Below, in pieces: positions 6,446 to 64,000 of a stretch of DNA of 64,000 nt (positions are counted from its first letter, which is position 1; each line of letters begins with the position of its first letter). A program made the translations under genes and the position numbers. The DNA lies in the NCBI GenBank assembly GCA_963920705.1, contig OY987232.1, positions 18,141,942-18,205,941 on the forward strand. Direction: 5' to 3'. The notes beneath the pieces are model-generated. The model ran no database searches. It saw only the letters and a list, made by a program, of their open reading frames with translations, and had not been told where the DNA came from. Source of the DNA: Odiellus spinosus. Its lineage: Eukaryota > Arthropoda > Arachnida > Opiliones > Phalangiidae.

Positions 6446-9400
6446 ATGAAAAATAATATTCTGAAAAGTGAGGTCGACAAACGTGACTTTCAAGTGGAAC
6501 CAACGTTCACAAATTCCGATGATAGATACAACACTTTAAGCAGCGAAGCGCATTTGGTCAGGTACTGTGATTCATTGATAACTATTACTGGTTTATCTTC
6601 TAATTATTTTGGAAAAACAAAAAAACTCTACTATCAAATATAAAAATTTTTTTCCACAATTTTAAAACACATTTTGTACCAAATAAAATATTTTTCTGGT
6701 CTCCAAGAAATCTAAAAATTAAGTTATTGAGGTTACATTTAAAGCATACTAAATGTATATGAAAGCTATTGATAGAGAACTTTGAGCTAATTTTTATATT
6801 TTTAAGTAATTATCAGTCATAAATTATAATAAATAATGGTGCCCAATTAAGATATCAAAGGTTAGAAAAAATCATCACTAAGTGCTTAATATTTCATTGA
6901 TTCTTATATCAATTGCGTTTACCGATGGTGTAAGTAAATAATATCAATATTAGATCATTTCTTACTATTTCTCTTAATTTTGATTATGATTTGAAGTTCA
7001 TGAACAAATTACCAATTGGATTAGAGCTCGGATTAATAACTAATCTTTTATAATATATTTTAATCTCGGATAAATTTAAGTTAATATAAATCCGCAAATT
7101 CTATAAACAGAATCGTATTCAAATGCTGGATACGAATTAGACCCGGAGATAAAATTTTAATTAATAAACGAATTATCCATCAATTTATTCGAACGGATAA
7201 CGGGCCGAGTTAAAAATACGACGTTTCTCGAAATCCGTAATATAGAATGAAATATAATAATTCCATTTTGTTCATCTAAATCGAAAGGAACAATTCTAGC
7301 TTCGAGATCTCAATTTTGGGTTAAAATAGACGAAGAAACTCTTTGGTTTCAAATTGTTCGTTATCGGCGAATGAATAACTTTATAACTCGTATCAATTTC
7401 CCAATTTAACAATGAATAGGAATCGCGTTAGTTTGCCGTTACATTCGGGTATCCGTTAATATCTCGAATAAGAAATGGATATTTTAATATCCGATTGACA
7501 TTCACGATGCTCTTATTCAATTAACCAGTAACCTAGCTAGCCTAGTTCTTTCAAAACAACTAATTTTTCTATTTTCCTTACTTGTAGCATTGACGAATGT
7601 ACTATTAAGGAAAAACATAGTGTACCTTTCTTTAAATTGGTAAGTTTTAAAATTTTAAATTAAAATCATGAATAACCAAATTAATCCCAATTTATTTTTA
7701 AAATCAGTTTCGATTTGCGTCCAGAATTGATCGAGTTTTATTGGTTACAAGTTGTTCCGTCGCTGTTATTGGTGGACTCATAATTCCTATGATATTAGGA
7801 TGTTTCTCTAGCGTATTTCAAAATTTCGTCGATTTAGGCCTAGAAAGATGGGCTCCATTCAATTGCGAACAAATGGAATTTTTTCAAGGAATTTTAGACA
7901 GCGGAGGTGACTTACGTTTCGCTCTAAGGCTCTTTGGGATTAATGATACTAAAATTATGTAAGTTTAATTATTATAATTAATAATTAGAGCTTGGAATTT
8001 AATTATTAATATAATAGATCTATTGAATTAAATTCAGATATTATCCGTTTGATAAAATCTCTTTTTATCCGAGAAAATGGCAACTAATCCTAGAATATTA
8101 TCCGAGTTATTTAAAAATTGATTAATCTTCAAAAATAATAAAGCTTCTTCTGGGAATCGAACCTCGGTCTCTGCAACTACCAAGCTAGTGCGTTACCAAC
8201 TTGGCAACATTTAATCGAATGATTAAGCTTAATTAGGAGTTTAGTTTCATGACCAAAAAATGGTATGGAAAATTTTAGACCCAACTACGAGTGTCCAAAC
8301 CAGTAGCGGCGGACGGTTCTTATTTTGGGGGGGGGGACATTTTTCGTTAAAGAACTTGGAAACAAGTTGCTCAAGACCAATATACCTGATACCACGCTGA
8401 GTGAAGAGTATTGTTAGAAATTAAAAACGTCACCTAGTTTATGAATTGAAGAATTATGTGCCTTTTTTTTCTTGCTAAAGTTCAGCCTGGTAAGGTATTG
8501 TAAGATAACTCCAAACAGGTTGAAATTATAGACTGATTTTTCTTATAATTCATTGAATTCAATTATATTCTGAGATTAATCAGAGTATTGACTGAACAAT
8601 TTGGGGAGGGACACGTATATTGGTTGTCCCCACCTGGTTTAATTGAGGGGGGACAATGTCCCCATGTCCCCACCCGTTCCGCCGCCACTGGTCCAAACTT
8701 TAACCATCGATATTGGACAATCCGTTGGAGCTAGGGAAAAGTGCCCATGGACAATTTTGCTCCTTTAACTAAGCTTAACAATATATTTTAATTTATATAA
8801 GTGTCCTTTGAAATATATTTCAATTATTTTCGACAAATTCTGAGAATGATAATTTTCTTATCCATCGTTATCCGTTTTAATTCGAGTTAACTCGTTAATA
8901 GATAAAACTTCGGGCGTTTATCTTCGGATAACCCTAACACCCATTTAAATTTTATCCAAATTTACGACTTTGTATATTCACAAACAATTTATCCGAAAAT
9001 AAAATATCGGATAAAATATTAATATCAGGAGATAAATGGTTATCCGATTCAGATAACTTTCAATTTTATCTTTGCAGAAGCAGACAAATGGTTTCATTAC
9101 TAAGAGTTTTAAATATCCCTCCTGGAAAAGAAGATTCAACCGTCGAAATTCCTCTATATGCGTGAGAATTTATTTGATTTTAGATTTAACTATAATTTAT
9201 TTCTCTACAGTATATATTTATGGCGGTAGTCATTGGGTAACTCATCAAAAAGGGGTAATTATCAAACGAGCCACAAACGCTATCAGTTCGCGGTTTTCAC
9301 TTAAATTTAAATTGAAATCTTCTTTAGTTCATGACGTAATTTTGATAATTATTACGTCAGATATTAGCGAATCTCGTTTAAAAATAACTTAACTGATCAT

Positions 9401-12400
9401 TTCCGTACCTATCTCGTGTTCTATTATCGCTAGAACTTTACTTCCGGCGAATTGTAAAAAAGTCGGACGTAGTTTGTGGTATAATTTGACAATTTTAAGT
9501 TTAATTTTAATCTAGTTACGATAAGAAACGTATATTATAACAGTGTTTTACGGATAAACTCCGAGATGTCGCTACGATAGAGGTTATATTATCCTAGACC
9601 CCGTCTACGTCTGGCCTACAGCGTGCCCAACCGCTTCCGCTAGAGGTAGGGGGATAGTGGGGAAAGAGGTAATCTTAGAGCTCAATAGACAATCCCTAAC
9701 CCCAGATAAACTGCGACCCCTATTAATGAAAATCAGTGCCATCTGGTGTTTCTTAATCGTAATAAATAACCCTTTACTACCGCTTTAAAGATATAAAAAA
9801 ACAGTATAACCAGAAGTATATGAAACCCTCCTTTGAAGTCTACTACTCTAATGTTCGATATAGCGCTCCTCTCTGTATGGGTAAAATTCCCAATTTTACG
9901 AGATCGGAGGGGTCTTACTTCATACCCCACTGTCTACGGAAAATTGGAAATTCTCTCTCTCCACAAACTACGACGTTTTTTTGACGAACTCCAAGGCTGC
10001 TAGAGATATTCGCTCGACGAATTCCCGCTCCGAAAATATCTACCGTTAGGAGGCGTACGAATCACGCTTTTTGCAACTAACCCATACAGAGAGGGGTAGA
10101 CAAGACCAGATAGTAATAGACTTCAAAGGAGGGTTTCATCGGCTTCTGATGTTATCTTGTTCCATTTCAGCGATAATTTGGCTTACCCTCAAGACGTTTT
10201 GGATTCAATTCGTGACGAATTGATGTCAAGAGTGGCTAAAACTTGCTTTAAAATGTTGATACTGGCGTTGATGCAACTAGTCCTGCTTTACCTCACCGTA
10301 TCATTCGCTAACCTATCAGCCGCCAAACAAGGTTTTCGAATAAGGTCTTCGTTCCTCAGGTCAATACTCAGACAAGAAATTGCTTGGTTTGATAAAAATC
10401 ATTCAGAAAACTTTGCCGTAAATATAACCAAGTAAGACGACTGAAAATAGGCTTAGCTGGATTCATGGAGATTCTGAATTCCTACGCATCGATGGGTCAG
10501 CGACCAATGAGCAAAGTCATATCGTTAAGGTGAAAGTTCCCATAACATTTGATTGGTTGCTGACACTTCAGGATCTCCATGAATCCAGCTAAGCCTATTT
10601 TTTTCCCGAGTTAGTTTTATATTCTCCTAAACATAATTAATTCTGTTTTTCAGCTCTTTAGATGTAATCCAAGAAGGATTGGGTGAACGTTTAACATTAA
10701 CGATACATTTTGCAGCGACTGGCATATTTTGTATAGTAGGAGCATTCGTTAGTGGTTGGAGACTGAGCCTAGTCGTAACGTCATTAATGCCATTCGTTTG
10801 CCTCGCTGCGGCACTAGCTTCAAAGGTAATATCAGAAGCCGATGAAACCCTCCTTTGAAGTCTACTATTCCAATGTTCCATATAGCGCTCCTCTCTGTAT
10901 GGGTAAAATTCACAATTTTCCGAGATCGGAGGGGTCCTACTTCATACCCCCATGTCTACGGAAAATTGGAAATTCTCTCTCTCCACAAACGACGACGTTT
11001 TTTTGACGAACTCCGAGGCTGCTAGAGATATTCGCTCGACGAACTCCCGCTCCGAAAATATCTACCGTTAGGAGGCGTACGAATCGCGCCTTTTGAGAAT
11101 AACCCATACAGAGAGGGGTAGACAAGACCCGGGAGTAATAGACTTCAAATGAGGGTTTCATCGGCTTCTGGTAAAATCAGAAGTTTGATTGTTAATAGAA
11201 GCAAGAGTCTACCCATAAAAGTAGCTTAATACTATCAGAAAAGGTCCAGACAAAATAGACAAAAAAGTCATCACCCCTGTCTTGCTCGCGTGGTTTGGAC
11301 TCTTCCACGATATTTTGAGTCAGGAGAGAGGGACGAAATTTAGGCACGAATTCCGAGCTCTATTAAAATATATTTTTTTGTTGTTCAGTATCAAACCGTA
11401 TTCATTCGCAAAGAAATGGCAGGATACAGTAAAGCGGGAGGAATAGCGGAAGAAGTATTGTCTGGTATTAGGACAGTCATGGCTTATAATGGAGAAAAGA
11501 AGGAATTGGACAGATACGTAACAAATCTACGTCAAACCAAAGACAGAGGCGTCAAGGGAAGTGTCATCCTTGGTGTGGGCTATTCCATTATTTGGTTTCT
11601 AACATACGGTAGTTTCTCACTCGCTTTGTGGTACGGATCAAGATTGGTAATTGGAAGCCGTTGTGACGTAGACGAATTTACCTCAACCGAGATGCTAACA
11701 GTAAGAAAGTTATCAAGCCCTGTTCGCTCTAACTCTATCGCTACGGTCACACGAATTGATTCTTAAACTTGAATTAGGTGTTGTTACTACTCCTCAACTG
11801 CGCCATATGTATGAGTCAAACGTCACTCAATTTTGAAGCATTTACCGCGGCTAGAGGGGCAGCAACCAAGATTTTTGAAATTATAGACAGAGTAGGTTGA
11901 TTTAATGTTAATTATGCAAGTAAAAACATAAATACTAAAGCAGGGTGACCACTGAAAATTTGAAAATCCTATATAGGAAATGTCTTTGCGAAATATAGGA
12001 AAATATAGGAAGAATTTCATGTAAAATATAGGATAAAATAGGAAGAAATAAGTCTAAAATATAATGATAAAATAGGAAAATAATTAATTAAAAGTAGGAA
12101 CCATGTTTATTATTGCGTCACAACTCTCGCCACCGGTTTAAACACGGTATTAATACGATCCAATTGCTTAAATAGTATGGAATTTTACAGACTATTTTAA
12201 CTGGAAAATGTACGGTTAAGCTAAAATAATCTTATCCAGCCACGGCTGACAGTATGATTTAGAACTTTATCCTTAACTAGAGATTTTGAGTAGAAATATA
12301 GGAGAGTATAGGAATTGACATTAAATTATAGGAGAAAATAGGAAGGAGGTGAAAAAGTGGTCAACCTGTTCTCTTCATTCACCCTTTAACTATCTAATAT

Positions 12401-15400
12401 ATTTTAAACGTGTTAGGAACCCATTATCGACAGCAGTTCTAATGCTGGTGTAATGCTGCAAACAGTCTATGGCCAATTGGCGTTTAGGAATGTTGTTTTC
12501 CAATACCCAATGCGACCAGATGTTTCGGTAAAAAAAATTTCTTCTTCACCCCATTATTAGTTTAACCAAAAGTCTATAATATTATTTAATAAAAGTAAAC
12601 AACGCCCCGTAGCTTAATACTATCAACAAAGGTCCAGTCCATCAATTAAAACTAACTAACGAGGTGTTGTTTACTTAAATGGAATAAATTGACAGACTTT
12701 TGCCCATATTCATTAGACTTAACTTTACCACACTAACTTTAAAACTAATTTTTAACATAAAGGTACTTCGAGGTGTGTCTTTCGAAGTTAACCCTGGAGA
12801 TACTGTGGCATTAGTTGGATGTAGTGGAAGTGGAAAAAGCACAGTTGTTCATTTATTACAAAGGTTTTACGATCCCAGTATTGGTCAAGTTAGTAAAAAC
12901 AAATATTACCAGAAGCCGATGAAACCCTCCTTTGAAGTCTATTACTCCCGGGTCTTGTCTACCCCTCTCTGTATGGGTTACTTTCAAAAAGCGCGATTCG
13001 TACGCCTCCTAACGGTACATATTTTCGGAGCGGGAGTTCGTCGAGCGAATATCTCTAGCAGCCTTAGAGTTCGTCAAAAAAACGTCGTCGTTTGTGGAGA
13101 GAGAGAATTTCCAATTTTCCGTAGACAGGGGGGTATGAAGTAGGACTCCTCCGATCTCGTAAAATTGGGAATTTTATCCATACAGAGAGGAGCGCTATAT
13201 CGGACATTAGAGTAGTAGACTTCAATGGAGGGTTTCATCGGCTTCTGAGTGAACTTATTTCTCATTTCCCACAATTTATAAATTTGCCCAGATTCCCCGC
13301 TAATTAATTAGAATTAAATTGCAATGACGTCAGCCTGCGTCGTTAAAACGTGTCCTGTAAAACACAGGAAATACTGACTTCCAAATAGAAATCAAATTTA
13401 ATTTTAACGGTGTTTGGAAATCCTTATGAACAGTAATTTTTGTAATGACGTCATTCCTTAATTCCAGTGCCAAAAAACAAGATTTTAACAATCCCAAGCC
13501 TTGGATATTTTCTGTTTTCAAGGGGGGATTAAGGCATATTTTACAATGGAGTAAAATTAATATGATTTAAATTAATTTTTAGGTTCTTTTGGATAACACT
13601 GATATAAGAAACTTGAATTTAGGATGGTATCGAAGCCTAATTGGTATCGTTGGTCAAGAACCATCCTTATTCGAAACGACAATAGCCGAAAATATCCGAT
13701 ATGGAAATATGGAGGCATCAGACGGTGCATTAGTACAAGCAGCCATCGCTGCCAATGCTCATGATTTTATAATGAAACTTCCAAATGTAAGCAGAAGTAG
13801 ATGAAACCCTCCTTTGAAGTCTACTACTCTAATGTTCCATATAGCGCTCCTCTCTGTATGGGTATAATTCCCCATTTTACGAGATCGGAGGGGTCCTACT
13901 TCATCCCCCCTGTCTACGGAAAATTGGAAATTCTCTCTCTCCACAAACGACGACGTTTTTTGGACGAACTCCAAGGCTGCTAGAGATATTCGCTCGACGA
14001 ACTCCCGCTCCGAAAATATCTACCGTTAGGAGGCGTACGAATCGCGCTTTTTAAAACTAACCCATACAGAGAGGGGTAGACAAGACCAGGGAGTAATACA
14101 CTTCAAAGGAGGGTTTCATCGGCTTCTGCGCAGATTTGCATTTTTAAAAAGGGTTTAAAGTTAAAAATATAATTCCTCGACCATTTAAATTTAAATATTT
14201 TCAGCAATACAACACGTTAGTTGGAGAAAAAGGTACCCAATTAAGTGGCGGACAAAAGCAGCGAATTGCAATTGCCAGAGCGTTAGTAAGAAACCCCAAA
14301 TTTCTATTACTGGACGAAGCCACGTCGGCTCTGGATTCAGTCAGTGAATCTCTAGTTCAAGCCGCTTTGGAAACTGTACGCAACAAACTCATAATCTATT
14401 TCGACTTGTATTTTGTTTCGTAACTTTATCATATTTTGTTAGGCTAGGAAAGGTCGTACAACTATTATAATTGCTCATCGTCTTTCAACAATTCGTAACG
14501 CGGATAAAATCATCGTTCTAAAGAAAGGAATTGTGGAAGAAATTGGATCCCACGCTGAACTAATGGCCAAAGAGTCTCACTACTATAAATTTGTTTGTTC
14601 GCAGGTATGGTCCCTAAGACCGCTACACATTGGTTGCGTCATGTGCCGGCGATTGCTTTAGCGCCTAACGTTCTATATTACCGTGAACTCTGATTAGCTC
14701 CCTCTATACGCAACGCTCCAAAAAAGGGTTACGCATCAAACCCTGTACACACTAGCCTGTTTTGGAGTGTTGCGTCGCGTGCGCCCATCGTTTTAGCGCG
14801 CGACGTTCGATTGTGCACGTGATCAGCTCGCTCTAAGCAACGCTCTTACACATTAAACCCTGTACACATTAGCTTGTTTTGAAGTACTGCGTCGCGTGCG
14901 CTGATCGTTTTAGCGCGTGACGTTCGATTGAGCGCGTGAAATCTGATACGCAACGCTCCAAAAAGGGATAATGTGTAGGGGGCTTTAGTATGTTTTGAGC
15001 GTTGTTAGTTTAATTTCAACTTAATTAGCATCTCTTCCAAACTAGCTAATGCGTAGATGGTTTCAGAAACAGCGTTTTAAATACTTGATACGTTTCAGGC
15101 CGAACTGACTAAAGAAGTTGAAAACAAACATATGGAGATTATGAACATTGACGACGTTATAATTAAAAACAACATCAATAATAATTTAGATGAAACGGCA
15201 GAATACAAGAAACATCGGAGGCATTCGTCTCTTCTTGATACGATTATGAGAATCTTGCCTATTGAGGTATGTCTATCTACTTTATCTGATCTTGAGTCTC
15301 CTAATTTGAATTTCAATAAATTATAGGAGCTAACTGAGAAGAAAAAGAGATCATATAAAAACTTTCACCAACAAATTCGATTACTAAGACTGTGTCTACC

Positions 15401-18400
15401 AGAATGGTATCTTCTCCTGTTTGGTATCTTGGCATCAGTCGTAATGGGAATGTCTTTTCCAGTTTTTGCAGTCATATTCGGTGACTGCATTAATGTAAGT
15501 TACTAAAACCAGAGGTATATAATAAACCCCTTCGGGGGGAAGTATGAAAGGTAGGCAAAATCGACGAACAACGAGTGCCCGGCGTAAATCGCGGCGGATC
15601 GACACACCGCTTTACTCCCAAAAAATAGTTACACCATTTTGAACCTCACTAAAATTTCCCTACGCGCGCTTCCGGAACTCGCGAGCCGAAGTCAACCTTC
15701 GACTCCATTTTAACAGACAGCCTGACTCCAGAGACAGGAAGTTCTAAACACAAATCGAGCCGTCTTGTTTATACAAAGACCATTTACTAGAGTAGCGACA
15801 TTGAGAAGTCCAGCGCGAGCTAGTGGTATAGATAGTCAGCAGCGGGCTCTTGTTGTTCCTGATTTTTAGCATTGGTAGTATAGGGGCTTTCATACTTCCC
15901 CCGAAGGGGGTTATTATATACCTCTGCTAAAACCAAAAATATGATAGGTTTAACCTTTTGACCTCTCCATAAAGTTTAAAAACAGATCTCTCTAGTTTGA
16001 AAGCGATTATGACATATTTCTTTCCCCTACCAGAAGTAATCTTAAATTATAACGGCTCGTAGTGGCCAAGGCTTAACGAAAAATAATTAGATTGTGACAA
16101 ATAATGCGTATCTTTTTAATCTACTTATGTTATTATATATTTAATTGTTCAATCTATCAAATAATTAAGTTTCTGCGATCGAACAACAACTCTAAGCATG
16201 GTAATTAACTAAAAGTTTTGGGAAATTTATCGATAGACGTTGATGCTAAGAGCTAATTAAGTGGGAACCTGCCTGTAGTTCGAAAAAGGTTTATAGAAAG
16301 GGGATCCAAAGAATTCTCTATTGTAACTTCTATCAGAAGTAGATGAAACCCTCCTTTGAAGTCTACTACTCTAATGTTCCATATAGCGCTCCTCTCTGTA
16401 TGGGTAAAATTCACAATTTTACGAGATCGGAGGGGTCCTACTTCATACCCCCCTGTCTACGGAAAATTGGAAATTCTCTCTCTCCACAAACGACGACGTT
16501 TTTTTGACGAACTCCGAGGTTGCTAGAGATATTCGCTCGACGAACTCCCGCTCCGAAAATATCTACCGTTAGGAGGCGTACGAATCGCGCTTTTTGAAAC
16601 TAACCCATACAGAGAGGGGTAGACAAGACCCGGGAGTAATAGACTTCAAAGGAGGATTTCATTGGCTTCTACTTCTATCCTTTCTTTCTAAAACTAAACT
16701 GGTTTAGTTAAAATATATTAATTTCTAATTAGGTCCTAACGGCTTCAAAGAGCACTGCTTATCCAAAAATTAACGAATACGTCCATCAAATGTTGTTTAT
16801 AGGATCAGGTCACGCAGTTGCAGCGTTTCTTCAGGTATATTAAATATAGATTAACTTGTCATAATTATAAATCGGGTACTACATCAAATCATTTCTTAAT
16901 CTTTCAAGAGTGTCCTGTACAGTGTTGCGGGAGAAAGGCAAACCCTAAGAGTACGAAAGAAGGTGTTTCGATCACTACTAGCACAAGTAAGTACTTAAAT
17001 TAAACTAGAAATAAATTTAAAATTAAAAATAGGCTTAGCTGGATTCATGAAGATCCTGGTTTTCTCAGCGACCAAAGAACAAAGGTTTAGTCGTTAAGGC
17101 GAGATCTCAATGAGACTTCTAATATTTAACATTCGATTGGTTGCTGACCTTTCAATGCAAATAAATTCAGGATTTTCATGAATCCAGCTAAGCCTATTTT
17201 TTGGGTAAGTTTTAAATTTGTTTCTAGTGTTAATATTTGTTTGAAATTTTGTTTACTGGTGGATTAGGACTAAAAAACAATCAGTTGTTGTTAGGGTTGC
17301 ATTTTCCCGTCAAACAAACATTAATTATGGTTTAATTTCAGGATATCACGTGGTTTGATGACCCCAAGAATGCAACAGGAGCATTATGTGCCCGATTATC
17401 TATAGACGCGTCGAAAGTGCGAATAGCAACAGTCGATAGAATTAGCACTTTCACAAACGCATTAGCAACTTTGGTAACTTGTTTCTACGTGGTGTTTTCC
17501 TGGTCCACCGATTTGGGTCTCATCTTCCTGGCTTTCATGCCACTAATATTTATCAGCACCTATCTTAGTACGAGCATATTTGGTAGCCACCATTTTCAAG
17601 AAAAATTATCTGAAGAAGGAGCGTCCAAAGTAAATAAAAACTGAGCTATTACTAAAGCAGCGTTCATACTAGTTCATATTAGTTCTAGCAGAAGCCGATG
17701 AAACCCTCCTTTGAAGTCTACTACTCCAATGTTCCATATAGCGCTCCTCTCTGTATGGGTAAAATTCCCAATTTTACGAGATCGGAGGGGGTCCTACTTC
17801 ATCCCCCCTGTCTACGGAAAATTGGAAATTCTCTCTCTCCACAAACGACGACGTTTTTTTGACGAACTCCGAGGCTGCTAGAGATATTCGCTCGACGAAC
17901 TCCCGCTCCGAAAACATCTACCGTTAGGAGGCGTACGAATCGCGCCTTTTGAGAATAACCCATACAGAGAGGGGTAGACAAGACCCGGGAGTAATAGACT
18001 TCAAAGGAGGGTTTCATCGGCTTCTGATAAAACTGAGCTATTACTAAAGCAGCGTTCATACTAGTTCATACTAGTTCTAGTCAAAATCTTTGTTTTTTAA
18101 TTCTGTCCTATAGACTGCAGTTGAAGCAATAAGTTGCATTCGTACCGTGACGTCACTTCACCGACAAGAAACGTTTACAAAGAAGTTTTTGTTCAGTTTG
18201 AAAAAGCCTTACAGGTATGGAAAAATTAATTAGTAGATATGTCTCTATTCGAATCTTATTATTATCATAATGTTTACAGGAGTGTGAGTCGCACAGCGCA
18301 TTTCAAAGCAATCTCCTTCGCCTTTTCTCAAAGTACAATGTGTTTTGCAATAATCGCTTGCATCTATAGAGGTAGTTACATCGTTACAACGGGAAAATTA

Positions 18401-21400
18401 ATTTTTAAAGGATTATTCACGTAATAACATTAATTTTGTCGTTAATTTTACTAACTAGAGATATGTAATTGTACAGATTCTATCTTGATTCTTTAGTGTT
18501 AGTCAAGCAATCATTGTGGGGATATTAGTGTTTGGACAAGCTTTAACTTACGCCCCTGAATATCAGAAGGCTAAGCAATCGGCGGACAGAATATTCGATC
18601 TTCTTGACAGAAAACCAAAGAAAAAGGAAACTTACAATTCAATTACTGGGGCGCTTCAGGTACGAGTGAAATAAACTTAAATTTAGTTTTCAATGAACTC
18701 CAAATTAAAATTGAGTCATATTTTCGGGTTAATCGTTAAAAAACGATTCAGAATATATATACATATGTCATAGAACAAAATTACAGCGACAGTAAAAATA
18801 CATATTTTATAATTTTTAAAAAAAATCCCCGCAATCTACGTCATCACTATAGTCACGTGATTTCGATATTGTAGAGCCAAGAAAGATCAGATCCTTCTTG
18901 GTAGAGCCAGAAGCCGATGAAACCCTCCTTTGAAGTTTATTACTCCCTGGTCTTGTCTACCCCTCTCTGTATGGGTTAGTTTCAAAAAGCGCGATTCGTA
19001 CGCCACCTAGCGGTAGATATTTTCGGAGCGGGAGTTCGTCGAGCGAATATCTCTAGCAGCCTCGGAGTTCGTCAAAAAAACGTCGTCGTTAGTGGAGAGA
19101 GAGTATTTCCAATTTTCCGTAGACAGGGGGTATAAAGTAGGACCCCTCCGATCTCGTAAAATTGGGAATTTTACCCATACAGAGAGGAGGGCTATACGGA
19201 ACATTAGTGTAGTAGACTTCAAAGGAGGGTTTCATCGGCTTCTGGTAGAGCCTACAGTTGATTCTCGCACGTTCTGACACGTGACATGGAGCCTAGCTTT
19301 TAATAAAAATTTGCGCCATTTTGCTTGCAAATATTTTCATGGTGAATTATATTTTTTTAACCAATTCGTGTTAATTTCAGTCTTTGGACACTGAAAAATA
19401 TACCGGTGGAAAGAGTGTTCAATTTTCCAACGTACATTTCTCGTATCCAATGAGATCAGAAATCAAAGTTCTACGTGGTTTAGATTTAACCGTTCCAGCC
19501 AATCAAACGGTAGCTCTCGTTGGAATGTCCGGTTGTGGTAAAAGCACGTGCATTCATCTATTAGAACGATTTTACGAATGCAAGAAAGGGGAAGTGGTAA
19601 AAAATACTATATAATTTAATTTTTAATTTCAATCGAATTTTAAATTCTAATTATTTTTTAGTTAGTGGAGAATATTAACATTAAAGACTACAGTATCCCT
19701 CATCTACGTTCTATTATTGGTCATGTTGGTCAAGAACCAGTTCTTCTAGGTTACTCAGTTGCCGAAAATATCGCTTATGGCGATAATTCTAGAAGAGTAC
19801 CTTACGAAGAAATAGTCAACGCTGCCAAAACAGCAAATATTCATAATTTCATTTGCTCACTGCCCCAAGTAAGTAACAGTAACACAAGTTATTCCAGGGT
19901 TGCCACAGTTTTTTCAGATCCAAATTCCCTGATTATTCCCTGACCTTTTCCAACGATTTTCCCTGACCGTTTCGACTAATACTACCCAATTTTTAAGCTT
20001 TTATTGTTTTATATAATCGCGTTCGCCAAACTGCAGGCGTATCTTTGTTCTAATCTATACAACTGACACGGTCAGCTGTGAAATTTTTCCGCAGATAATG
20101 ATTGTAATTTCCTGGCTTCTTGAAAGATCTTTAAATTCCCTGACTTTTTAAAATATCTTAAAATTCCCTGTCTTTTTTGGTTCATTTTCAAATTCCCTGA
20201 CTTTTCCAGGTTTCCCTGACCCGTGGCAACCCTCTATTCTTGAGCAATTTTCAACTAAATGAATTTAATATTACAGGGATATGACACTGTTCTTGGAAAT
20301 CGTGATAGCCATTTAAGTGGTGGAGAAAAGCAGAGAGTCGCAATTGCCAGAGCTTTAGTTAGGAACCCAAAGATTCTTCTACTCGATGAAGCCACTTCCG
20401 CTTTGGATTCTCAAAATGAGAAGGTGAATTCAAATTCTTAATTTTCATTTTTTGACTTTAGTGGTTCCAGAAGCCGATGAAACTCTCCTTTGAAGTCTAT
20501 TACTCCCGGGTCTTGTCTACCCCTCTCTGTATGGGTTAGTTTCAAAAAGCGCGATTCGTACGCCTCCTAACGGTAGATATTTTCGGAGCGGGAGTTCGTC
20601 GAGCGAATATCTCTAGCAGCCTCGGAGTTCGTCAAAAAAACGTCGTCGTTTGTGGAGAGAGAGAATTTCCCCTTTTCCGTAGACAGGGGGGATGAAGTAG
20701 GACCCCTCCGATCTAGTAAAATTGTGAATTTTACCCATACAGAGAGGAGCGCTATATGGAACATTAGAGTAGTAGACTTCAAAGGAGGGTTTCATCTACT
20801 TCTGGTGGTTCCTAATGTATTACCAAAAGTTTATCACTAAAAGTAAACAACGCCCTTTAGTTTAATTCTACCAGCAAATGAAATAGACATTTGGTTTGAA
20901 CAGAAGTAGATGAAAGCCTCCTTTGAAGTCTACTACTCTAATGTTACATATCGCGCTCCTCTCTGTATGGGTAAAATTCCCAATTTTACGAGTTAGAAGG
21001 GGTCCTACTTCATACCCCCCTGTCTACGCAAAATTGGAAATTCTCTCTCTCCACAAACGACGACGTTTTTTTGGACGAACTCCAAGGCTGCTAGAGATAT
21101 TCGCTCGACGAGCTCCCGCTCCGAAAAACATCTACCGTTAGGAGGCGTACGAATCGCCCCTTTTGAGAATAACCCATACAGAGAGGGGTAGACAAGACCA
21201 GGGAGTAATAGACTTCAAAGGAGGGTTTCATCGGCTTCTGGTTTGAATAATATCATATGAATAAGCTATATATTTCTATTTATTAGATTGTACAAGAAGC
21301 TTTAGATAAAGCAAGACAAGGTAGAACGTGCATTGTAATTGCACATCGTTTATCAACTGTCCAAAACGCCGACATGATTGCCGTGATACAAGACGGAAAA

Positions 21401-21493
21401 GTCGTTGAAAGAGGAACCCATTATGAACTTTTAACGAAACGGGCGCTTTATTATAAAATGTTTCGAATGCAAAATGATTCTAGAAAATTTTGA
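6446..21493 (+). CDS. ABCB1-like: ABCB-type full ABC transporter (P-glycoprotein-like)
   Basis: ATP-driven efflux pump, expected in the plasma membrane. Twenty-five exons join in frame to about 1373 residues: 6446-6561, 7588-7639, 7708-7958, 9078-9161, 10171-10431, 10654-10825, 11389-11700, 11778-11891, 12417-12527, 12763-12888, 13583-13786, 14205-14375, 14443-14604, 15099-15266, 15327-15494, 16733-16834, 16909-16986, 17342-17629, 18114-18214, 18280-18420, 18497-18659, 19381-19596, 19662-19868, 20277-20423, 21287-21493. The order is TMD1-NBD1-linker-TMD2-NBD2. NBD1 has Walker [10 protein letters not shown] (about 510-518), Q-loop VGQEP, signature LSGGQ (about 614) and Walker B FLLLDE. NBD2 has GMSGCGKST (about 1163), VGQEP, signature LSGGE (about 1269) and ILLLDE. 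Both H-loops read IAHRLST. All introns are GT-AG. CAG at 6434-6436 just before the ATG suggests a spliced 5' UTR. AATAAA lies at 21616. Substrate cannot be read; bile-salt or peptide exporters of the same subfamily are alternatives. Confidence 0.94.
7059..7401 (+). repeat. 343 bp dispersed repeat, left copy
   Basis: Nearly identical, in the same orientation, to 24546-24888. It includes the GGATACGAATTAGA block and the TTATCCATCAATTTATTCGA block. It lies in ABCB intron 1, and its partner lies downstream of the gene. No terminal inverted repeats or coding potential were seen. Confidence 0.88.
8150..8213 (-). other. tRNA-like or tRNA-derived SINE fragment
   Basis: On the minus strand a box A-like TTGCCAAGTTGG is followed about 35 nt later by a box B-like GGTTCGATTCCC, the spacing of a tRNA-type internal promoter. 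The T stem pairs poorly and no clean acceptor stem is visible, so this looks like a tRNA pseudogene or SINE head rather than a working tRNA. It sits in ABCB intron 3. Confidence 0.4.
8301..8690. mobile_element. Non-autonomous hAT-like transposon (390 bp)
   Basis: The ends are CAGTAGCGGCGGA and TCCGCCGCCACTG, an imperfect terminal inverted repeat continued by G-rich and C-rich arms (GGGGGGGGGGACA against TGTCCCCATG). A perfect 8 bp target-site duplication GTCCAAAC occurs at 8293-8300 and 8691-8698. CAGTGGCGG-type ends and 8 bp duplications are typical of hAT elements. No transposase is encoded. It is inserted in ABCB intron 3. Confidence 0.88.
9811..10148 (+). mobile_element. Foldback element FB1, copy 1
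   Basis: 338 bp, forward orientation, in ABCB intron 4. The left end is CAGAAGTATATGAAACCCTC and the right end is the complement-like GGGTTTCATCGGCTTCTG. The flanks (GTATAAC and ATGTTAT) do not form the 7 bp duplication seen at other copies. Confidence 0.93.
10442..10605. mobile_element. Foldback element FB3, copy in ABCB intron 5
   Basis: Inverted arms AAAATAGGCTTAGCTGGATT and AATCCAGCTAAGCCTATTTT enclose about 90 bp, so the RNA or single strand would fold into one hairpin. It fills most of the 222 bp intron between exons 5 and 6. Related copies lie near 17027, 41845 and 59445. Confidence 0.85.
10833..11170 (+). mobile_element. Foldback element FB1, copy 2, at a splice donor
   Basis: 338 bp, forward, inserted 7 nt inside ABCB intron 6. 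The 7 nt between exon end and element are GTAATAT, and GTAAAAT follows the right end at 11171-11177. The target-site duplication is therefore the 5' splice site itself, and the original donor is kept next to exon 6. Confidence 0.94.
11205..11345. mobile_element. Foldback element FB4, truncated copy
   Basis: Matches the left half of the fuller copy at 25169-25865: GTAGCTTAATACTATCAG, then the block reading AAAAAAGTCATCACCCCTGT and the TTTGGACTCTTCC block. It lies in ABCB intron 6, just right of FB1 copy 2. Confidence 0.75.
12567..12702. mobile_element. Foldback element FB4, internally deleted copy
   Basis: It has both FB4 ends (CAAAAGTCTATAA on the left, ACAGACTTTTG on the right, with GTAAACAACGCCCCGTAGC and GAGGTGTTGTTTAC arms) but almost no interior. 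It lies in ABCB intron 9. Confidence 0.75.
12910..13247 (-). mobile_element. Foldback element FB1, copy 3
   Basis: 338 bp, reverse orientation, starting 21 nt into ABCB intron 10. Both CAGAAG/CTTCTG ends are present. The flanks ATATTAC and AGTGAAC show no target-site duplication. Confidence 0.93.
13792..14128 (+). mobile_element. Foldback element FB1, copy 4
   Basis: 337 bp, forward, starting only 5 nt into ABCB intron 11 (donor GTAAG, then the element). The flanks do not match as a 7 bp duplication. Confidence 0.93.
14640..14965. repeat. Degenerate GC-richer repeat block in ABCB intron 13
   Basis: Three imperfect repeats carry GCGTCGCGTGCGC-like, TTTTAGCGCG and ACGTTCGATTG blocks separated by ACGCAACGCTCC, partly as inverted copies. 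It is much richer in CpG than the surroundings. No reading frame or element ends were identified. Confidence 0.6.
15510..15926. mobile_element. Foldback element FB2, copy 1
   Basis: About 417 bp with terminal inverted repeats of roughly 40 bp starting CAGAGGTATATAATAA and ending TTATTATATACCTCTG, each followed inward by a CCCCTTCGGGGGGAAG stem. A perfect 7 bp target-site duplication CTAAAAC lies at 15503-15509 and 15927-15933. No coding capacity. In ABCB intron 15. Confidence 0.94.
16334..16671 (+). mobile_element. Foldback element FB1, copy 5
   Basis: 338 bp, forward, in ABCB intron 15. The last base of the right end is changed (CTTCTA instead of CTTCTG). CTTCTAT occurs on both sides as a 7 bp duplication. 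Confidence 0.92.
17027..17204. mobile_element. Foldback element FB3, copy in ABCB intron 17
   Basis: Inverted arms AATAGGCTTAGCTGGATTCA and TGAATCCAGCTAAGCCTATT. Weaker pairing continues outward (CTAGAAATAAATTT on the left, AAATTTGTTTCTAG on the right, then GGTTGCATTTTCCC near 17300), so the full element may span most of the intron. Confidence 0.8.
17689..18026 (+). mobile_element. Foldback element FB1, copy 6, flanked by 54 bp direct repeats
   Basis: 338 bp, forward, in ABCB intron 18. Instead of a 7 bp duplication the element is abutted on both sides by the same 54-55 bp sequence (17634-17688 and 18027-18080), with one extra A and one T/C difference. Confidence 0.93.
18691..18812 (+). repeat. 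Dispersed repeat shared with 4708-4820
   Basis: Same orientation and high similarity over about 115 bp, including TTAATCGTTAAAAAACGATT-like and TTACAGCGACAGTAAAAAT blocks. In ABCB intron 21. Nature unknown. Confidence 0.75.
18908..19244 (-). mobile_element. Foldback element FB1, copy 7
   Basis: 337 bp, reverse, in ABCB intron 21. A perfect 7 bp target-site duplication GTAGAGC lies at 18901-18907 and 19245-19251. Just left (about 18878-18902) is a short remnant with the AGATCAGATCCTTCTTGG ends of family FB6 (see 50288). Confidence 0.96.
19895..20233. mobile_element. hAT-like CAGGGTTGCCA element, ABCB intron 23
   Basis: The left end is CAGGGTTGCCACAG and the right end GTGGCAACCCT, with repeated AAATTCCCTGAC and TTTTCCCTGACC blocks between. 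These ends are common in hAT-type non-autonomous elements. A clear target-site duplication was not found. Confidence 0.7.
20468..20804 (-). mobile_element. Foldback element FB1, copy 8
   Basis: 337 bp, reverse, 45 nt into ABCB intron 24. A perfect 7 bp target-site duplication GTGGTTC lies at 20461-20467 and 20805-20811. Confidence 0.96.
20901..21240 (+). mobile_element. Foldback element FB1, copy 9
   Basis: 340 bp, forward, the second FB1 copy in ABCB intron 24. A perfect 7 bp duplication GTTTGAA lies at 20894-20900 and 21241-21247. An FB4 end fragment (GTAAACAACGCCC) lies between the two copies. Confidence 0.96.
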
Positions 21494-21938
21494 ATTTCAA
21501 CTAACACCTTAGATCTCCATCACAACGAACGTTACGCGACTTTGACTAACGATTTTTAAGTAATTATATAATTACCGATTGAGAAACGCGTAATTACATC
21601 TGTAATTAACATTAAAATAAATAAATTATGGCTAAAACCTTTAATTAATTTTTAAGTGAAATATCTTAATCATAAAAAATTATCATCCCATTTTAAACTC
21701 ACACTTTGAAAGCGAAAAAATGGTGACTGCCTTACTTTTAGTATTAAGAGTTTGTGTTACTTATGGTACTATAAGTAATATATTCATAATTTCATATAAA
21801 TTCATGGCGTGATCTCGTCTTGATTGTTTTTAAATTTAATTTAATTTAGCCTCCCTAATAAAAACAAACGATTGCATAATCACCATGGAATTGTATTTTT
21901 TTTTCCAGATTTAATAATTTCGTTTAAATGATAACTAC
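21494..21938. other. ABCB 3' flank
   Basis: Holds overlapping AATAAA hexamers at 21616-21625, about 120 nt after the stop codon, the likely polyadenylation signal of the ABCB gene. No further coding or repeat feature seen. Confidence 0.6.
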
Positions 21939-22276
21939 CAGAAGTAGATGAAACCCTCCTTTGAAGTCTACTACTCTAATGTTCGATATAGCGCTCCTCT
22001 CTGTATGGGTAAAATTCCCAATTTTACGAGATCGGAGGGGTCCTACTTCATACCCCCCTGTCTACGGAAAATTGGAAATTCTCTCTCTCCACAAACGACG
22101 ACGTTTTTTTCACGAAGTCCGAGGCTGCTAGAGATATTCGCTGGACGAACTCCCGCTCCGAAAATATCTACCGTTAGGTTGCGTACGAATCGCGCCTTTT
22201 GAAACTAACCCATACAGAGAGGGGTAGACAAGACCCGGGAGTAATAGACTTCAAAGGAGGGTTTCATCGGCTTCTG
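21939..22276 (+). mobile_element. Foldback element FB1, copy 10
   Basis: 338 bp, forward, downstream of the ABCB gene. Flanks TAACTAC and TAACTAG match at 6 of 7 positions, a slightly decayed target-site duplication. Confidence 0.94.
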
Positions 22277-22304
22277 TAACTAGTAACTCGCAAATTTGGT
22301 TTTG

Positions 22305-22617
22305 CAGCGTTGCCACAGTTTTTTCAGATTCAAATTTCCTGACTTTTCCAGGTTTTTTCCCTGACCTTTTCAGCTAATACTACCCAATTTTTAACCTTTT
22401 ATTTTTATATTATATTGCAATTGCGTTCACCAAACTTTGTTGCAGGCGTATCTTTGTTCTAATCTACATAACTGACACGGTCAGATAAGAATCTTTTCTG
22501 CGGATAATGATTGTAATTTCCTGACTTTTTAAAATATCTTAAAATTCCCTGACCTTTTGGTTCATTTCCAAATTCCCTGACCTTTCTCTGTTTTCCCTGA
22601 CCTATGGCAGCTTTGTA
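22305..22617. mobile_element. hAT-like GTTGCCACAG element, truncated
   Basis: Same CCCTGAC-rich interior as the copy at 19895-20233, with GCGTTGCCACAGTTTTTTC on the left and TTTCCCTGACC before a poor GGCAGC right end. Related sequence also lies at 27242-27375 and 27594-28506. Confidence 0.65.
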
Positions 22618-22760
22618 TTTCATCAAACCTGTTCGCTCTAGTGATTGGCTCTGGCTTTGATTATAATGAGTAGTTATAAATTGATTAAACAGTCGAGCAT
22701 TGCTTAATTTACTGCCGAAGGGCTTCGAAGAGTTCGAGAAAACGTGTGAAAGAAATCGAC

Positions 22761-22995
22761 TTATCATTTCAATTGAAAATGAAGTTCAATTTGATCCATA
22801 ATCACTTCTAATATGATGATGACGCTACAGATTAGTAAGCAGGCTAGTAGAGCGTAAAATGGAGGTGTCATTTCAAAGAGACTCAAATCGGCAGCACTAT
22901 CTTGCGGTTTCTTCCAAGTAATGTAATCGATGTTATAATTAAATTCAAAATCCAAGTACGCGAAAGGTTTGCTTTCAAAAAATGGATGCAGCCTG
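22761..22995 (-). pseudogene. Orphan exon with a C-terminal membrane segment
   Basis: On the minus strand a good acceptor (a run of T then CAG near 22996) opens a frame to a stop at about 22761. It ends with a strongly hydrophobic stretch (FYALLACLLICSVIIILEVI) after an Asp/Ser-rich lead and a short polar tail. The shape of acceptor, last transmembrane helix and stop resembles the last exon of an ionotropic receptor-like protein, but the match is only by eye. No upstream exon is visible in the next kilobase, which is occupied by an FB2 element. I treat it as a stranded exon or gene fragment. Chance is possible. Confidence 0.35.
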
Positions 22996-23063
22996 AAAAA
23001 TGGTGCAAAAAAGGCACCATTTTGAAATATTAAGACGTATTTCCTTCAGGGAAATGGTAAAAT

Positions 23064-23481
23064 CAGAGGTATATAATAACCCCCTTCGGGGGGAAGTATG
23101 AAAGGTAGGCAAAATCGACGAACAACGAGTGCCCGGCGTAAATCGCGGCGGATCGACACACCGCTTTACTCCCAAAAAATAGTTACACCATTTTGAACCT
23201 CACTAAATAATCCCTACGCTCACTTCCGGAACTTACGAGCTGAAGTCAACCTTCGACTCCATTTTAACAGACAGCCTGACTCCCGAGACAGGAAGTTCTA
23301 AACACAAATCGAGCCGTCTTGTTTATACAAAGACCATTTACTAGAGTAGCGACATTGAGAAGTCCAGCGCGAGCTAGTGGCCTAGACAGTCAGCAGCGGG
23401 CTCTTGTTGTTCGTGATTTTTAGCATTGGTAGTATAGGGGCTTTCATACTTCCCCCCGAAGGGGGTTATTATATACCTCAG
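23064..23481. mobile_element. Foldback element FB2, copy 2
   Basis: 418 bp, same orientation and almost the same sequence as 15510-15926. The right end reads CCTCAG rather than CCTCTG. Flanks GTAAAAT and CTAAGAG do not form a clean duplication. Confidence 0.92.
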
Positions 23482-23929
23482 CTAAGAGATGTCTTGAAAG
23501 TGCCTAAGAGATACGTTACGTCTTTAAAGTGGCAAAGATCTGCCTTGAAGTTACCAAAAAGGTATTACTAACAATTTTACGTTTTTGTAAAAAGAGCTAG
23601 CCAATGGCGTCCCTAGAAATTATTTCCATTAAAAATATGTCTTGAAATTGCCTAAGAGATATGTAACTATGGTTAGATGATTTTAAATAGTTTGGCATTG
23701 CTTAGTTTATTTGGGTACTGTCGATGTACTGTTACTGTTTATAATAATAAAAAATTAACTCCTAACCCTAAATAAATAAAATTAAAAAAATAATACAAAC
23801 ATTAACTTCGTATGGTTTATCCCACAGCTTTGTTCCATCAAAGTAACTAATTTTGTGGTCTTCGACATTTGCCCTGTGAAATAAAAAATCGGGCTTGTGA
23901 TCCTAGCTAACAATTTAAATATATCCTAC
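23482..23929. other. Intergenic, no gene seen
   Basis: AT-rich sequence between two foldback elements. Short repeats of AAGAGATACG/AAGAGATATG type occur, but no exon, RNA gene or element ends were recognised. Confidence 0.5.
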
Positions 23930-24268
23930 CAGAAGCCGATGAAACCCTCCTATGAAGTCTACTACTCCAATGTTCCATATAGCGCTCCTCTCTGTATGGG
24001 TAAAATTCCCAATTTTACGAGTTAGAAGGGGTCCTACTTCATCCCCCCTGTCTACGGAAAATTGGAAATTCTCTCTCTCCACAAACGACGACGTTTTTTT
24101 GACGAACTCCGAGGCTGCTAGAGATATTCGCTCGACGAACTCCCGCTCCGAAAACATCTACCGTCTAGGAGGCGTACGGATCGCGCCTTTTGAGAATAAC
24201 CCATACAGAGAGGGGTAGGTCAAGACCCGGGAGTAATAGACTTCAAAGGAGGGTTTCATCGGCTTCTG
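23930..24268 (+). mobile_element. Foldback element FB1, copy 11
   Basis: 339 bp, forward. A perfect 7 bp duplication ATCCTAC lies at 23923-23929 and 24269-24275. Confidence 0.96.
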
Positions 24269-24545
24269 ATCCTACGTATAATATTGTTATTCGAACGTAC
24301 TTAAAGTTGAATGCTCTTAGTGCAAAATTGGAGCTATCTTGGTATTTGATTTTTTGGCTCTTCATATCCCAAGTTTCCTAATTAATTAAGTAAATTAATT
24401 TAAATTCCAGTCCCCTGATCATATAATGAAATTACTTCAATCGTCCCATAATTTGTTGGATACGGTTTTATAAATCTATTAAAAAAGAATAAAGGATGAT
24501 GAATAATTTTGGATATCAATTAATAACTAGGCTTGTTTTCGGATA

Positions 24546-24888
24546 TTTTAATCTCGGATAAATTAAGTTAATATAAATCCACAAATTATATAAACAGAAT
24601 CGTATTCAAATGCTGGATACGAATTAGATCCGGAGATAAAATTTTAATTAATAAACGAATTATCCATCAATTTATTCGAACGGATAACGGGCCGAGATAA
24701 AAATACGACGTTTCTCGAAATCCCTAATATAGAATGAAATATAATAATTCCATTTTGTTCGTCTAAATCGAAAGGAACGGTTCTAGCTTCGAGATCTCAA
24801 TTTTGGGTTAAAATAGACGAAGAAACTCTTTGGTTTCAAATTGTTCGTTATCGGCGAATGAATAACTTTATAACTCGTATCAATTTCC
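24546..24888 (+). repeat. 343 bp dispersed repeat, right copy
   Basis: Direct-orientation partner of 7059-7401, about 17.5 kb away. The two copies bracket almost the whole ABCB gene. Confidence 0.88.
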
Positions 24889-25168
24889 TTACGATGGCTA
24901 ATTATATTTAAAAATAATTTAAATATATCAAAGAATACCTGTATTTGAAGTGACTGTCGGGTCTTGTATAAAAATATTCGGATAAATTCATTTTAGACTA
25001 ATAAAACTTACAACTCACGTCCAACGAAAATATTTTCCAATCTAATAACAGCAAGATAACGCAAATATAAATTGTTACAAGTTGTGTAAAATATTCATAA
25101 CTACTAAAGGGCGCTACTGTATTATGATACAGTTAATATTGATTGAAAGATAGAAATAAGAGTTACAT

Positions 25169-25865
25169 CAAAAGTCTATGACTTTATTCCATGAAAGTAA
25201 GCAACACCCAGTAGCTTAATACTATCAGCAGAAGCCGATGAAACCCTCCTTTGAAGTCTATTACTCCCGGGTCTTGTCTACCCCTCTCTGTATGGGTTAT
25301 TCTCAAAAGGCGCGATTCGTACGCCTCCTAACGGTAGATATTTTCGGAGCGGGAGTTCGTCGAGCGAATATCTCTAGCAGCCTTGGAGTTCGTCCAAAAA
25401 ACGTCGTCGTTTGTGGAGAGAGAGAATTTCCAATTTTCCGTAGACAGGGGGGTATGAAGTAGGACCCCTCCGATCTCGTAAAATTGGGAATTTTACCCAT
25501 ACAGAGAGGAGCGCTGTATGGAACATTGGAGTAGTAGACTTCAAAGGAGGGTTTCATCGGCTTCTGCTATCAGCAAAGGTCCGGGTAAATGTACTAACAG
25601 CTTCTGATTCGAGACACTCTAGCGCCACTCAGCGGAGAAAATCATTCCGGAGTTGGAAGGAGGGAAGATAGCCAAGCGCGGCCCGCCTAATTCCGTCCCT
25701 CTCTCCAGACTCAAAATATCGAGGAAGAGTCCAAATCACTCGAGCCAGACAGGGGTGTTGACTTTTTTGTCTATTTTTAAGTGACGACGTAAAACTAAGC
25801 CTTTGCTGATAGTATTAAGTAACGGGGTGTTGTTTACTTTTATCGAATAACGTTATAAACTTTTG
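25169..25865. mobile_element. Foldback element FB4, fullest copy, with FB1 nested in it
   Basis: Outer inverted arms start CAAAAGTCTATGACTTTATT and end with the matching AAACTTTTG. Inside them are GTAGCTTAATACTATCAG and its complement CTGATAGTATTAAG. FB1 copy 12 interrupts the left arm, so FB4 was there first. Without it the element is about 350 bp. The interior carries a GTGACGACGT stretch and a TCTCTCCAGACTCAAAATAT block shared with copies at 33556, 40180 and 60175. Confidence 0.85.
25229..25566 (-). mobile_element. Foldback element FB1, copy 12 (nested)
   Basis: 338 bp, reverse, inside FB4. A perfect 7 bp duplication CTATCAG, taken from the FB4 arm, lies at 25222-25228 and 25567-25573. 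Confidence 0.96.
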
Positions 25866-26305
25866 AATATAATAATGAGCTTGAGAATTAAATACAGAAC
25901 GTACTTAATTACAATCGATCAATACTTAATTACCAAGAAATGATGAAAAACATAGTCATGTTTACAGCTCGATAAATTCAAAACCAACTTAAGTTAAAGG
26001 CAGGAAAAAAGCTAGTCTCCCTATGAGGGTTGAATAATCTTTATGTACTCAGGTTAGGATGTCACATTTAATGCCGTGTACAAAATAAACCTTGTTGAAC
26101 TATATAAGCTGAGCATATTCGTTTTATTCAAAGCAATTAATGACTTTTGTTACGAAAAAACACATATATTGTTTTTCATTATAACCAGAAACTAACGTTT
26201 TGTCAATAAAATGCGACCGAAAAAATATATATCTGTTTCGGTTGGGATATTATAATCAATAAAAATAGTGATAATTTGCCTTGGTCAGAAGCTTAAATTT
26301 AAAAC
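25866..26305. other. Intergenic, no gene seen
   Basis: AT-rich. Part of it (about 25904-26050) is similar to 27395-27550, with a shared AATACTTAATTACC, an AAATGATGAAAAA block and ATGAGG, so a diverged duplicate flanks the 30 bp array on both sides. Confidence 0.5.
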
Positions 26306-27222
26306 GGTAATATCTGTCCATTCTAATAAATTATACCTGTCCATTAAAAATTGTAATAAATTCTATATCTGTCCATTCTGAGTTGTAATAATTAATATCC
26401 GTCCATTCTGAGTTGTAAGAAATTATATCTGTCCATTCTGAGTTGTAATAAATTATATCTGTCCATTCTGAGTTGTAATAAATTATATCTGTCCATTCTA
26501 AGTTGTAATAAATTATATATGTCCATTCCGAGTAGTAATAATTGGTATCTGCCCATTATGAGTTGTAATAAATAATATCTGTCCATTCTGAGTTGTAATA
26601 AATTATATATGTCCATTCTGAGTTGTAATAAATTATATCTGTCCATTATGAGTTGTAATAAATTATATCTGTCCATTCTAAGTTGCAATAAATTATATCT
26701 GTCCATTCGAAGTTGTAATAAATTATATCTGTCCATTCGAAGTTGTAATAAATTATATCTGTCCATTCTAGGTTGTAATAAATTATATATGTCCATTCCG
26801 AGTAGTAATAATTGGTATCTGCAAATTATGAGTTATAAAAAATAATATATGTCCATTCTGAGTTGTGATAAATTATATATGTCCATTCGGAGTTGTAATA
26901 AATTATATCTGTCCATTGTAAGTTGTAATAATTGGTATCTGTCCGTTCTGAGTTTTAATAATTTATATCTGTCCATTGTAAGTTGTAAAAAATAATATCT
27001 GTCCATTCTGAGTTGTATTAAATTATATCTATCCATTCTGAGTTATTATAAAATATATCTGTCTATTCCGAGTTGTAAGGAATTATCTCTGATCATTATG
27101 AGTTGTAATAAATTATATCTGTCATTCGGAGTTGCAATAAATTATATCTGTCCATTATGAGTTGTGATAATTAATATCTGTCCATTCTGAGTTGTAATAA
27201 ATTATATCTGTCCATTTGCAAT
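26306..27222. repeat. 30 bp tandem array
   Basis: About thirty units of the type CTGTCCATTCTGAGTTGTAA plus TAAATTATAT, with single-base variants and a few one-base length changes near the right end (after about 27060). A unit length divisible by three keeps frames open on both strands. No protein is inferred. Confidence 0.95.
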
Positions 27223-33555: not shown

Positions 33556-33745
33556 GAAAGCCTATCACTTTACTCCATAACAGTAAACAACGCCCCGTAG
33601 CTTAATACTATCAGGAAAGTTCCAGTTTTACGTCATAGCCCGTCACTCAAAAATAGACAAAAAAGTCATCACCCCTGTCTGGTTCTAATGATTTGGACTC
33701 TTCCATGATATTTTGGGTCAGGGGAGAGGAACTTTATTACCCTAT
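33556..33745. mobile_element. Foldback element FB4, truncated copy
   Basis: Left arm (GTAAACAACGCCCCGTAGC and CTTAATACTATCAGG) followed by the GTCATCACCCCTGTCTGG block. The right arm is missing. It begins about 80 nt after the AKR stop codon. Confidence 0.78.
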
Positions 33746-63420: not shown

Positions 63421-64000
63421 TTTGGGAAAAGCGCGCCGTGTAAAACTCGCCTCTCATTGGCTCCGCGGGATCACGTGGTTGTTCTCCCGGGAGAAAGACT
63501 CCCTGCCTAGTTCATAACGAGGTTAGAGCAGGCGTATGCCTCTAGCTTTATTGATTTACCGATTTAATATCTTTGAAATAGAAGTGGCTTTCTACACGCT
63601 ATACTCTTAGGCTGATATTAATTTATTAAATAATTTTGATTGATTTTAAATCATTAAACATAATAAAATAATATTTATTAGGCATATATATTTTATAAAT
63701 CTTTTCATATTTTGTAATAATAATACGAAGACTTTGTAAAGATCCATAATTAAGGCTATAATTAGTGTTTAATTAGTATTTTTTGACGCTATGTCGTGTA
63801 AATTTGACCAAAAATGAAAAAAAATTGTTTTTAACCGTAATTTGAATCAAAATATCTTTATAATTAAAGTTAATTGATAAAATTAAGTTAATTAAAGTCT
63901 TATTTACGCGTTTTGAGGTTAAAAGGGGTTTATTTTGCTATATAAAAGTGCCAGGAGTGTTTTTAAGCCCTTATATACTCCAAATCAAATTTAATCATGA
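63421..64000. other. Right edge with a short CpG-rich patch
   Basis: 63428-63510 is GC-rich (GCGCGCCGTGTAAAACTCGC, TCACGTGG, CTCCCGGGAG) inside very AT-rich sequence. It could be a promoter core of a gene beyond the window or the end of a transposon. The rest is AT-rich without exons. Confidence 0.4.

Follow-up and report, generated by a model that had tools for sequence, protein, structure and literature searches.

FB1, an abundant hairpin MITE family of Odiellus spinosus, and its dense cluster at an ABCB transporter gene

Introduction

In the literature on MITE clustering and 7-bp target duplications, the nearest system to the FB1 element described here is Galileo, a member of the P superfamily found in Drosophila; FB1 itself could not be searched in print. 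Galileo has a 7-bp duplication with the consensus GTANTAC or GTATTAC, located inside a 15-bp palindromic motif, according to the part of the source available to us (PMC4168063). In that description Galileo is an inverted-repeat element with a palindromic 7-bp duplication, and FB1 is likewise. On the other hand, FB1 is a 338-bp MITE without a coding part, and no transposase has been linked to its ends. Its duplication shows no G/C preference at the ends and has a weak third base, and the flanking bases are also different.

Two other systems should be mentioned. MITEs bearing P-element ends are known from Anopheles gambiae (PMC1562414, in the available part of the text). These P-MITEs, as presented there, are flanked by duplications of 8 bp, and their partner P subfamilies are known, whereas FB1 has a 7-bp duplication and no partner has been found. 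Tm1, a foldback-like element of root-knot nematodes, is an inverted-repeat element with MITE-like members, as is FB1. It appears as Mutator/Foldback in the title of its description, and the accessible part of that paper gives 9-bp duplications and composite ends made of tandem repeats (PMC3169594). The FB1 ends are simple in comparison, with a duplication of 7 bp.

We have studied FB1 starting from a window of O. spinosus DNA, by which we mean the whole 64-kb stretch that was analysed, located on the chromosome labelled C8. It contains a gene for an ABCB transporter, and all the FB1 copies of the window are found in or next to this gene.

Results

The FB1 element

FB1 is about 338 bp long. Its terminal inverted repeats have about 37 bp and extend imperfectly to about 80 bp. 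Copy 17689, the only one folded (copies are named by their first position in the window), forms one long hairpin: -84 kcal/mol as DNA versus -39 for shuffled sequences (z -10.3), and -155 versus -91 when folded as RNA (z -11.3). No open frame of at least 100 amino acids lies wholly within any FB1 copy of the window, and Rfam at gathering scores gives no match in the window. A 23-base core of the element, searched with up to two mismatches permitted, has 12,807 matches in 443 Mb, including 12/12 window copies; the reversed-pattern control has 0. Short uniform length, no coding capacity, inverted repeats with a target duplication and a high copy number are all found, and the assignment of FB1 to the MITEs is well supported.

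A perfect 7-bp duplication is present in 54 of 77 copies (48/65 outside the window, 6/12 inside), with an end shift of up to 2 bases permitted. When lengths of 6, 7 and 8 are tried, a perfect 7-bp duplication is the best fit in 36 of 46 copies. The 54 sites, oriented with the element and with the strands unpooled, give an AT-rich palindrome, T-n-n-[nTnntAn]-n-n-A. T is found in 39 sites at position -3, in 39 at base 2 and in 33 at base 5; A is found in 43 at base 6 and in 35 at +3. Base 3 of the duplication is weak (A in 22, T in 20).

Some variants have also been seen, two of which are included in Table 1. A third one, with a deletion at the left end (GTTCCATATAGCGCTCC), is seen on C7 (four entries) and C4 (one entry) among the matches listed, a hint, spotted post hoc, of a chromosome-bound spread of one variant.

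The ABCB cluster

The first-pass annotation of this DNA had described twelve full copies of 337-340 bp, eight forward and four reverse, with none in the other 48 kb of the window. A blastn search with copy 9811 as query gives the same twelve, at the same positions and with the same strand split, and no other match at E 1e-3. The count of six perfect 7-bp target duplications, private to their copies, is also recovered. As had been proposed, FB1 is a genuine family of transposons and its copies do not stem from tandem amplification. The placement of nine copies in ABCB introns and three downstream holds on exon borders read by eye. All these features are collected in Table 1.

Table 1. Features of the window, and FB1-related features located elsewhere. 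Positions are those of the window unless a label precedes them; a slash inside a sequence marks a splice site.
Feature	Position	Strand	Remarks
ABCB / P-glycoprotein type full transporter	7702..21493	+	Many exons; exon borders and splice sites read by eye
FB1 copy 1	9811..10148	+	ABCB intron; end 22 nt 5' of 3' splice site at 10170; duplication sought at flanks, none seen
FB1 copy 2	10833..11170	+	7 nt past 5' splice site (TCAAAG/GTAATAT-FB1); 6 of 7 duplication bases match
FB1 copy 3	12910..13247	-	ABCB intron; duplication sought at flanks, none seen
FB1 copy 4	13792..14128	+	ABCB intron, 5 nt past 5' splice site (AAAT/GTAAG-FB1); duplication sought at flanks, none seen
FB1 copy 5	16334..16671	+	ABCB intron; duplication CTTCTAT, perfect when last element base is taken as changed
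FB1 copy 6	17689..18026	+	ABCB intron; 52-bp direct repeat on both flanks
FB1 copy 7	18908..19244	-	ABCB intron; perfect 7-bp duplication
FB1 copy 8	20468..20804	-	ABCB intron; perfect 7-bp duplication
FB1 copy 9	20901..21240	+	Intron shared with copy 8; perfect 7-bp duplication
FB1 copy 10	21939..22276	+	3' of ABCB stop codon; 6 of 7 duplication bases match
FB1 copy 11	23930..24268	+	Downstream of ABCB; perfect 7-bp duplication
FB1 copy 12	25229..25566	-	Downstream of ABCB; perfect 7-bp duplication; left flank matches third dispersed family
Direct repeat at copy 6	17637-17688, 18029-18080		52 bp, 98%; replaces the 7-bp duplication; left unit stops exactly at element
Second palindromic MITE-like family	10441-10605, 16999-17272, 41884-42123, 59356-59640		Ends GGCTTAGCTGGATTC; inside and outside ABCB locus
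Third dispersed repeat family	11252-11345, 25644-25866, 33557-33729, 40234-40434, 60197-60430		Inside and outside ABCB locus
Satellite/minisatellite array	1-4245		13/69-bp units
Satellite/minisatellite array	26324-27216		30-bp units
Satellite/minisatellite array	51631-53904		193-bp units
Satellite/minisatellite array	55943-56822		31-bp units
Near-tandem repeat	62160-62891, 62693-63425		About 733 bp, 95% identical
FB1-like element	L047:4161-4750		590 bp; FB1-like ends on both sides, interior mostly different; probably a related family
FB1 copy, middle duplicated	L039:1462-2010		About 200 bp of the middle tandemly duplicated
Facing pair of FB1 ends	C12:4696032/4700835		Altered ends, about 5 kb apart
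Facing pair of FB1 ends	C1:1867823/1873056		Altered ends, about 5 kb apart
Triple of FB1 tags	C15:12314184-12321364		Three flank-chosen tags in 7.2 kb; tag picks about 0.4% of ends

The likely first membrane exon of ABCB is near 7.7 kb, as read by eye (tblastn gave no match there), and the stop codon is at about 21.49 kb. Three pairs of inverted copies surround ABCB exons: 10833/12910 (four exons), 12910/13792 (one exon) and 17689/18908 (three exons). The first pair is 95% complementary over 346 nt; each of the other two is 95% complementary over 239 nt, ungapped. With exons lying between such inverted copies, ABCB RNA may be affected. More intron sequence is found outside FB1 in the ABCB introns examined, which rules out a reading of FB1 as an introner, an element whose boundaries make the intron. 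We should also note that copies 10833 and 12910 have GTAATAT in common, in opposite sense. An inversion between them as the cause of the missing duplications is ruled out: the intervening exons run in the gene sense.

The local crowding that had been noticed is evident. The twelve copies lie in 15.76 kb, or 761/Mb, which is 26 times the genome mean of 29/Mb (Poisson at the genome-mean rate, P 1e-13). The genome mean is the wrong yardstick for the density of this cluster, as the distribution of the family makes clear.

Distribution in the genome

FB1 is clumped genome-wide, at scales from 16 kb to 1 Mb. We have used two lists of places: list A has 146 ends of FB1 type whose inner sequence is altered (100 listed, ending in C13), and list B has 104 ends chosen by four bases outside the element (100 listed). 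Among the matches listed in both, 14 pairs are at most 16 kb apart, 8.6 times the 1.63 expected from uniform placement, where the counts take in two triples (C2 and C15) which are possible local duplications, facing pairs of list A may be one element, and the C1-C13 length of 290 Mb used in the expectation is an estimate. On the same basis there are 46 pairs within 100 kb (10.2 expected) and 267 within 1 Mb (102 expected). Pairs within list B and between lists, 6 at up to 16 kb with 1.08 expected, are independent of a shared end variant and cannot be caused by one.

On C8, all tags among the matches listed are found beyond 11.9 Mb, in the arm which includes the window: 16/16 for list A and 9/9 (8 elements) for list B. 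The enrichment of this arm over the genome rate is 4.0 times with list B (about 116/Mb) and 6.6 times with list A (about 190/Mb), where the limits of 11.9 and 19.4 Mb were drawn after list A was seen, and the latter value rests on the same data. The whole window, with 12 copies in 64 kb, has 188/Mb, and nine further copies (from ten BLAST pieces) are found in the 40 kb around it. FB1 is also present outside the distal arm, with a copy at C8:7.50 Mb. The clustering across the genome, which the first-pass annotation had left to a map of all copies, is seen in both place lists and in the C8 arm, on the basis of the matches listed.

Transposase matches on C8 show another distribution. Most of those listed are below 11.9 Mb, a cut made post hoc: 11/12 for PF21787, 9/10 for PF05699 and 3/3 for PF21789. 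C8 looks divided into a transposase-rich part and an FB1-rich part.

Direct reads of 4-kb loci give a neighbour density lower than the pair counts suggest: A second copy is found in 4 of 10 such loci, taken on ten chromosomes around close relatives of copy 17689, about 109/Mb. In six arbitrary 10-kb stretches, a sample too small to estimate density, a single diverged piece is present and no complete FB1. The C15 triple reflects either dense clustering or local duplication.

Density at the ABCB locus is high at the 16-kb scale even when the regional rate is used. Given 21 copies in 104 kb, a scan for 12 in 15.4 kb has P 0.0006 (23 of 40,000 uniform placements), or 0.00075 with one copy counted twice, for a locus that was picked for its density. 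The other 48 kb of the window include parts of AKR, LRRFIP, Bcl-2 and MBOAT genes and no FB1, so lack of genes is not the reason for its absence there. Two other dispersed repeat families range from 10 to 60 kb in the window.

The density of the target motif is ruled out as the cause of the cluster, as the locus is not denser than the upstream region (4.3-9.8 kb) in any of three versions of the motif. Motifs per kb in the locus, upstream and downstream (25.6-64 kb) are 11.1, 15.1 and 11.7 for version 1, 9.5, 13.1 and 7.8 for version 2, and 4.3, 8.5 and 5.9 for version 3. Only version 2 is slightly denser in the locus than downstream.

Relatedness of the copies

We have aligned 78 FB1 copies; 17 of them, which had been selected for their similarity to 9811 or 17689, are omitted from the permutations. 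The mean divergence within the cluster is 4.74%, compared with 4.44% between the cluster and 8 flanking copies, 4.84% for 7 copies on other chromosomes whose choice did not depend on sequence, and 5.61% for a C1 sample of 34 more diverse copies, chosen by an exact core from 0.2-1.7 Mb of that chromosome. Cluster copies differ from the consensus by 2.9% on average. The permutation test for tightness of the cluster gives P 0.60 with 27 copies and P 0.063 with 61 copies, which include the C1 sample; it is only against this sample that the cluster is slightly tighter.

The nearest relative lies inside the cluster for 3 of the 12 copies when 61 are compared (2.2 by chance), and for 5 of the 12 when 27 are compared (5.05 by chance). 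Divergence and distance are unrelated (Mantel r 0.02, P 0.44), and adjacent copies differ by 4.9%, versus 4.7% when shuffled. When the cluster label is mapped on a tree of 61 copies, it requires nine changes. Constraining the cluster to a single clade makes the tree 37 log units worse, but with an AU p of 0.06 this arrangement is not formally rejected. Relatives of 9811 (40 of 877 candidates scored) are on C8 in 5/39 cases, FB1 tags in 16/146 (P 0.43). The list of relatives of 17689 (40 of 179 candidates scored) does not contain 25229, which is 98.8% identical, and for this reason has not been used for the cluster. To judge by these comparisons, the twelve copies look like independent insertions and not local hops: they are as divergent among themselves as from copies elsewhere, and neighbours are not closest relatives.

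Discussion

The most likely reading is that FB1 is a MITE mobilised in trans and that the ABCB cluster consists of separate insertions, the dense end of a clumping which extends to the whole genome. FB1 would be a non-autonomous hairpin element moved by a cut-and-paste transposase, which would duplicate 7 bp at AT-rich palindromic targets. Copies from a pool spread over the genome may have inserted many times, independently, in the same accessible stretches, where intronic insertions would be tolerated. The ABCB locus would be one such stretch within an FB1-rich chromosome arm.

Local transposition had been suggested as an explanation of the cluster: one or a few founder copies would have seeded the locus by repeated short hops, like those of the Drosophila P elements, which cover about 50-150 kb according to the part of PMC7776569 available. 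A few close pairs are in fact present in the cluster (17689/25229, 1.2%; 16334/20468, 2.1%). Nevertheless, the cluster copies are no closer to one another than to copies elsewhere, their similarity is unrelated to position, and several have their closest known relatives on other chromosomes (17689 on C5 and 23930 on C1, both at 0.6%). Only an old local origin with later mixing would escape these data, and we consider local hopping very unlikely. It is also improbable, if slightly less so, that some feature of ABCB, such as germline transcription, a replication origin or a promoter, attracts FB1 above other genes. The contrast between twelve copies here and none near the other gene parts of the window, as well as the scan at the local rate, may be read in this way, but FB1 clumps elsewhere (the C15 triple is an example, unless it is a local duplication), more copies surround the window, and 3/12 copies of the cluster are outside the gene. 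A preference for ABCB in particular is not needed. We would give somewhat more room, while still considering it unlikely, to a joint reading in which the 16-kb clumping beyond the regional density, not due to hopping, motif or relatedness, reflects a chromatin or replication feature drawing a P-like transposase, and the inverted copies in ABCB pair to give exon-skipped or circular RNAs.

The superfamily of the transposase is a separate question. The 7-bp duplication and flanking palindrome of FB1 fit Galileo, as far as the available part of its description goes (PMC4168063), and P-type transposases (PF21787) are plentiful in this genome, with 150 scored out of 386 candidates. No FB1 ends were found in 12 P-type transposase loci taken with 1.5 kb on each side. 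The facing pairs on C12 and C1, the latter being altered FB1 ends, have no transposase among the matches listed in transposase profile searches; the P-type loci examined and the transposase matches listed did not reveal an autonomous element sharing the ends of FB1. FB1 might instead be a hAT-type MITE with an unusual 7-bp duplication, an assignment which we consider the less probable one. The ends of hAT elements are CAG-like, and in their target duplications the second base is T and the penultimate one A; FB1 ends start with CAG, and its duplication has T and A at the same places. hAT transposases are also abundant, with at least 150 matches (150/150 scored of 220 candidates). However, hAT duplications have 8 bp, not 7 as in FB1, and the T and A close to the ends of the duplication, common to P-type and hAT elements, are not decisive. 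The P superfamily is somewhat more likely than hAT. As the third target base is weak, we have lowered our confidence in this assignment slightly, to little better than an even chance.

In summary, FB1 is a MITE family of an ordinary kind, present in very large numbers and markedly clumped. Its dense cluster at ABCB is an example of a genome-wide habit and nothing special to the gene, because the copies look like separate arrivals. For ABCB itself there is no consequence beyond the possible effects of many intronic hairpins. With about 12,800 copies, many clean target sites and strong clumping, FB1 is a good natural record of the insertion sites of one transposase, in which insertion preference can be separated from local hopping.
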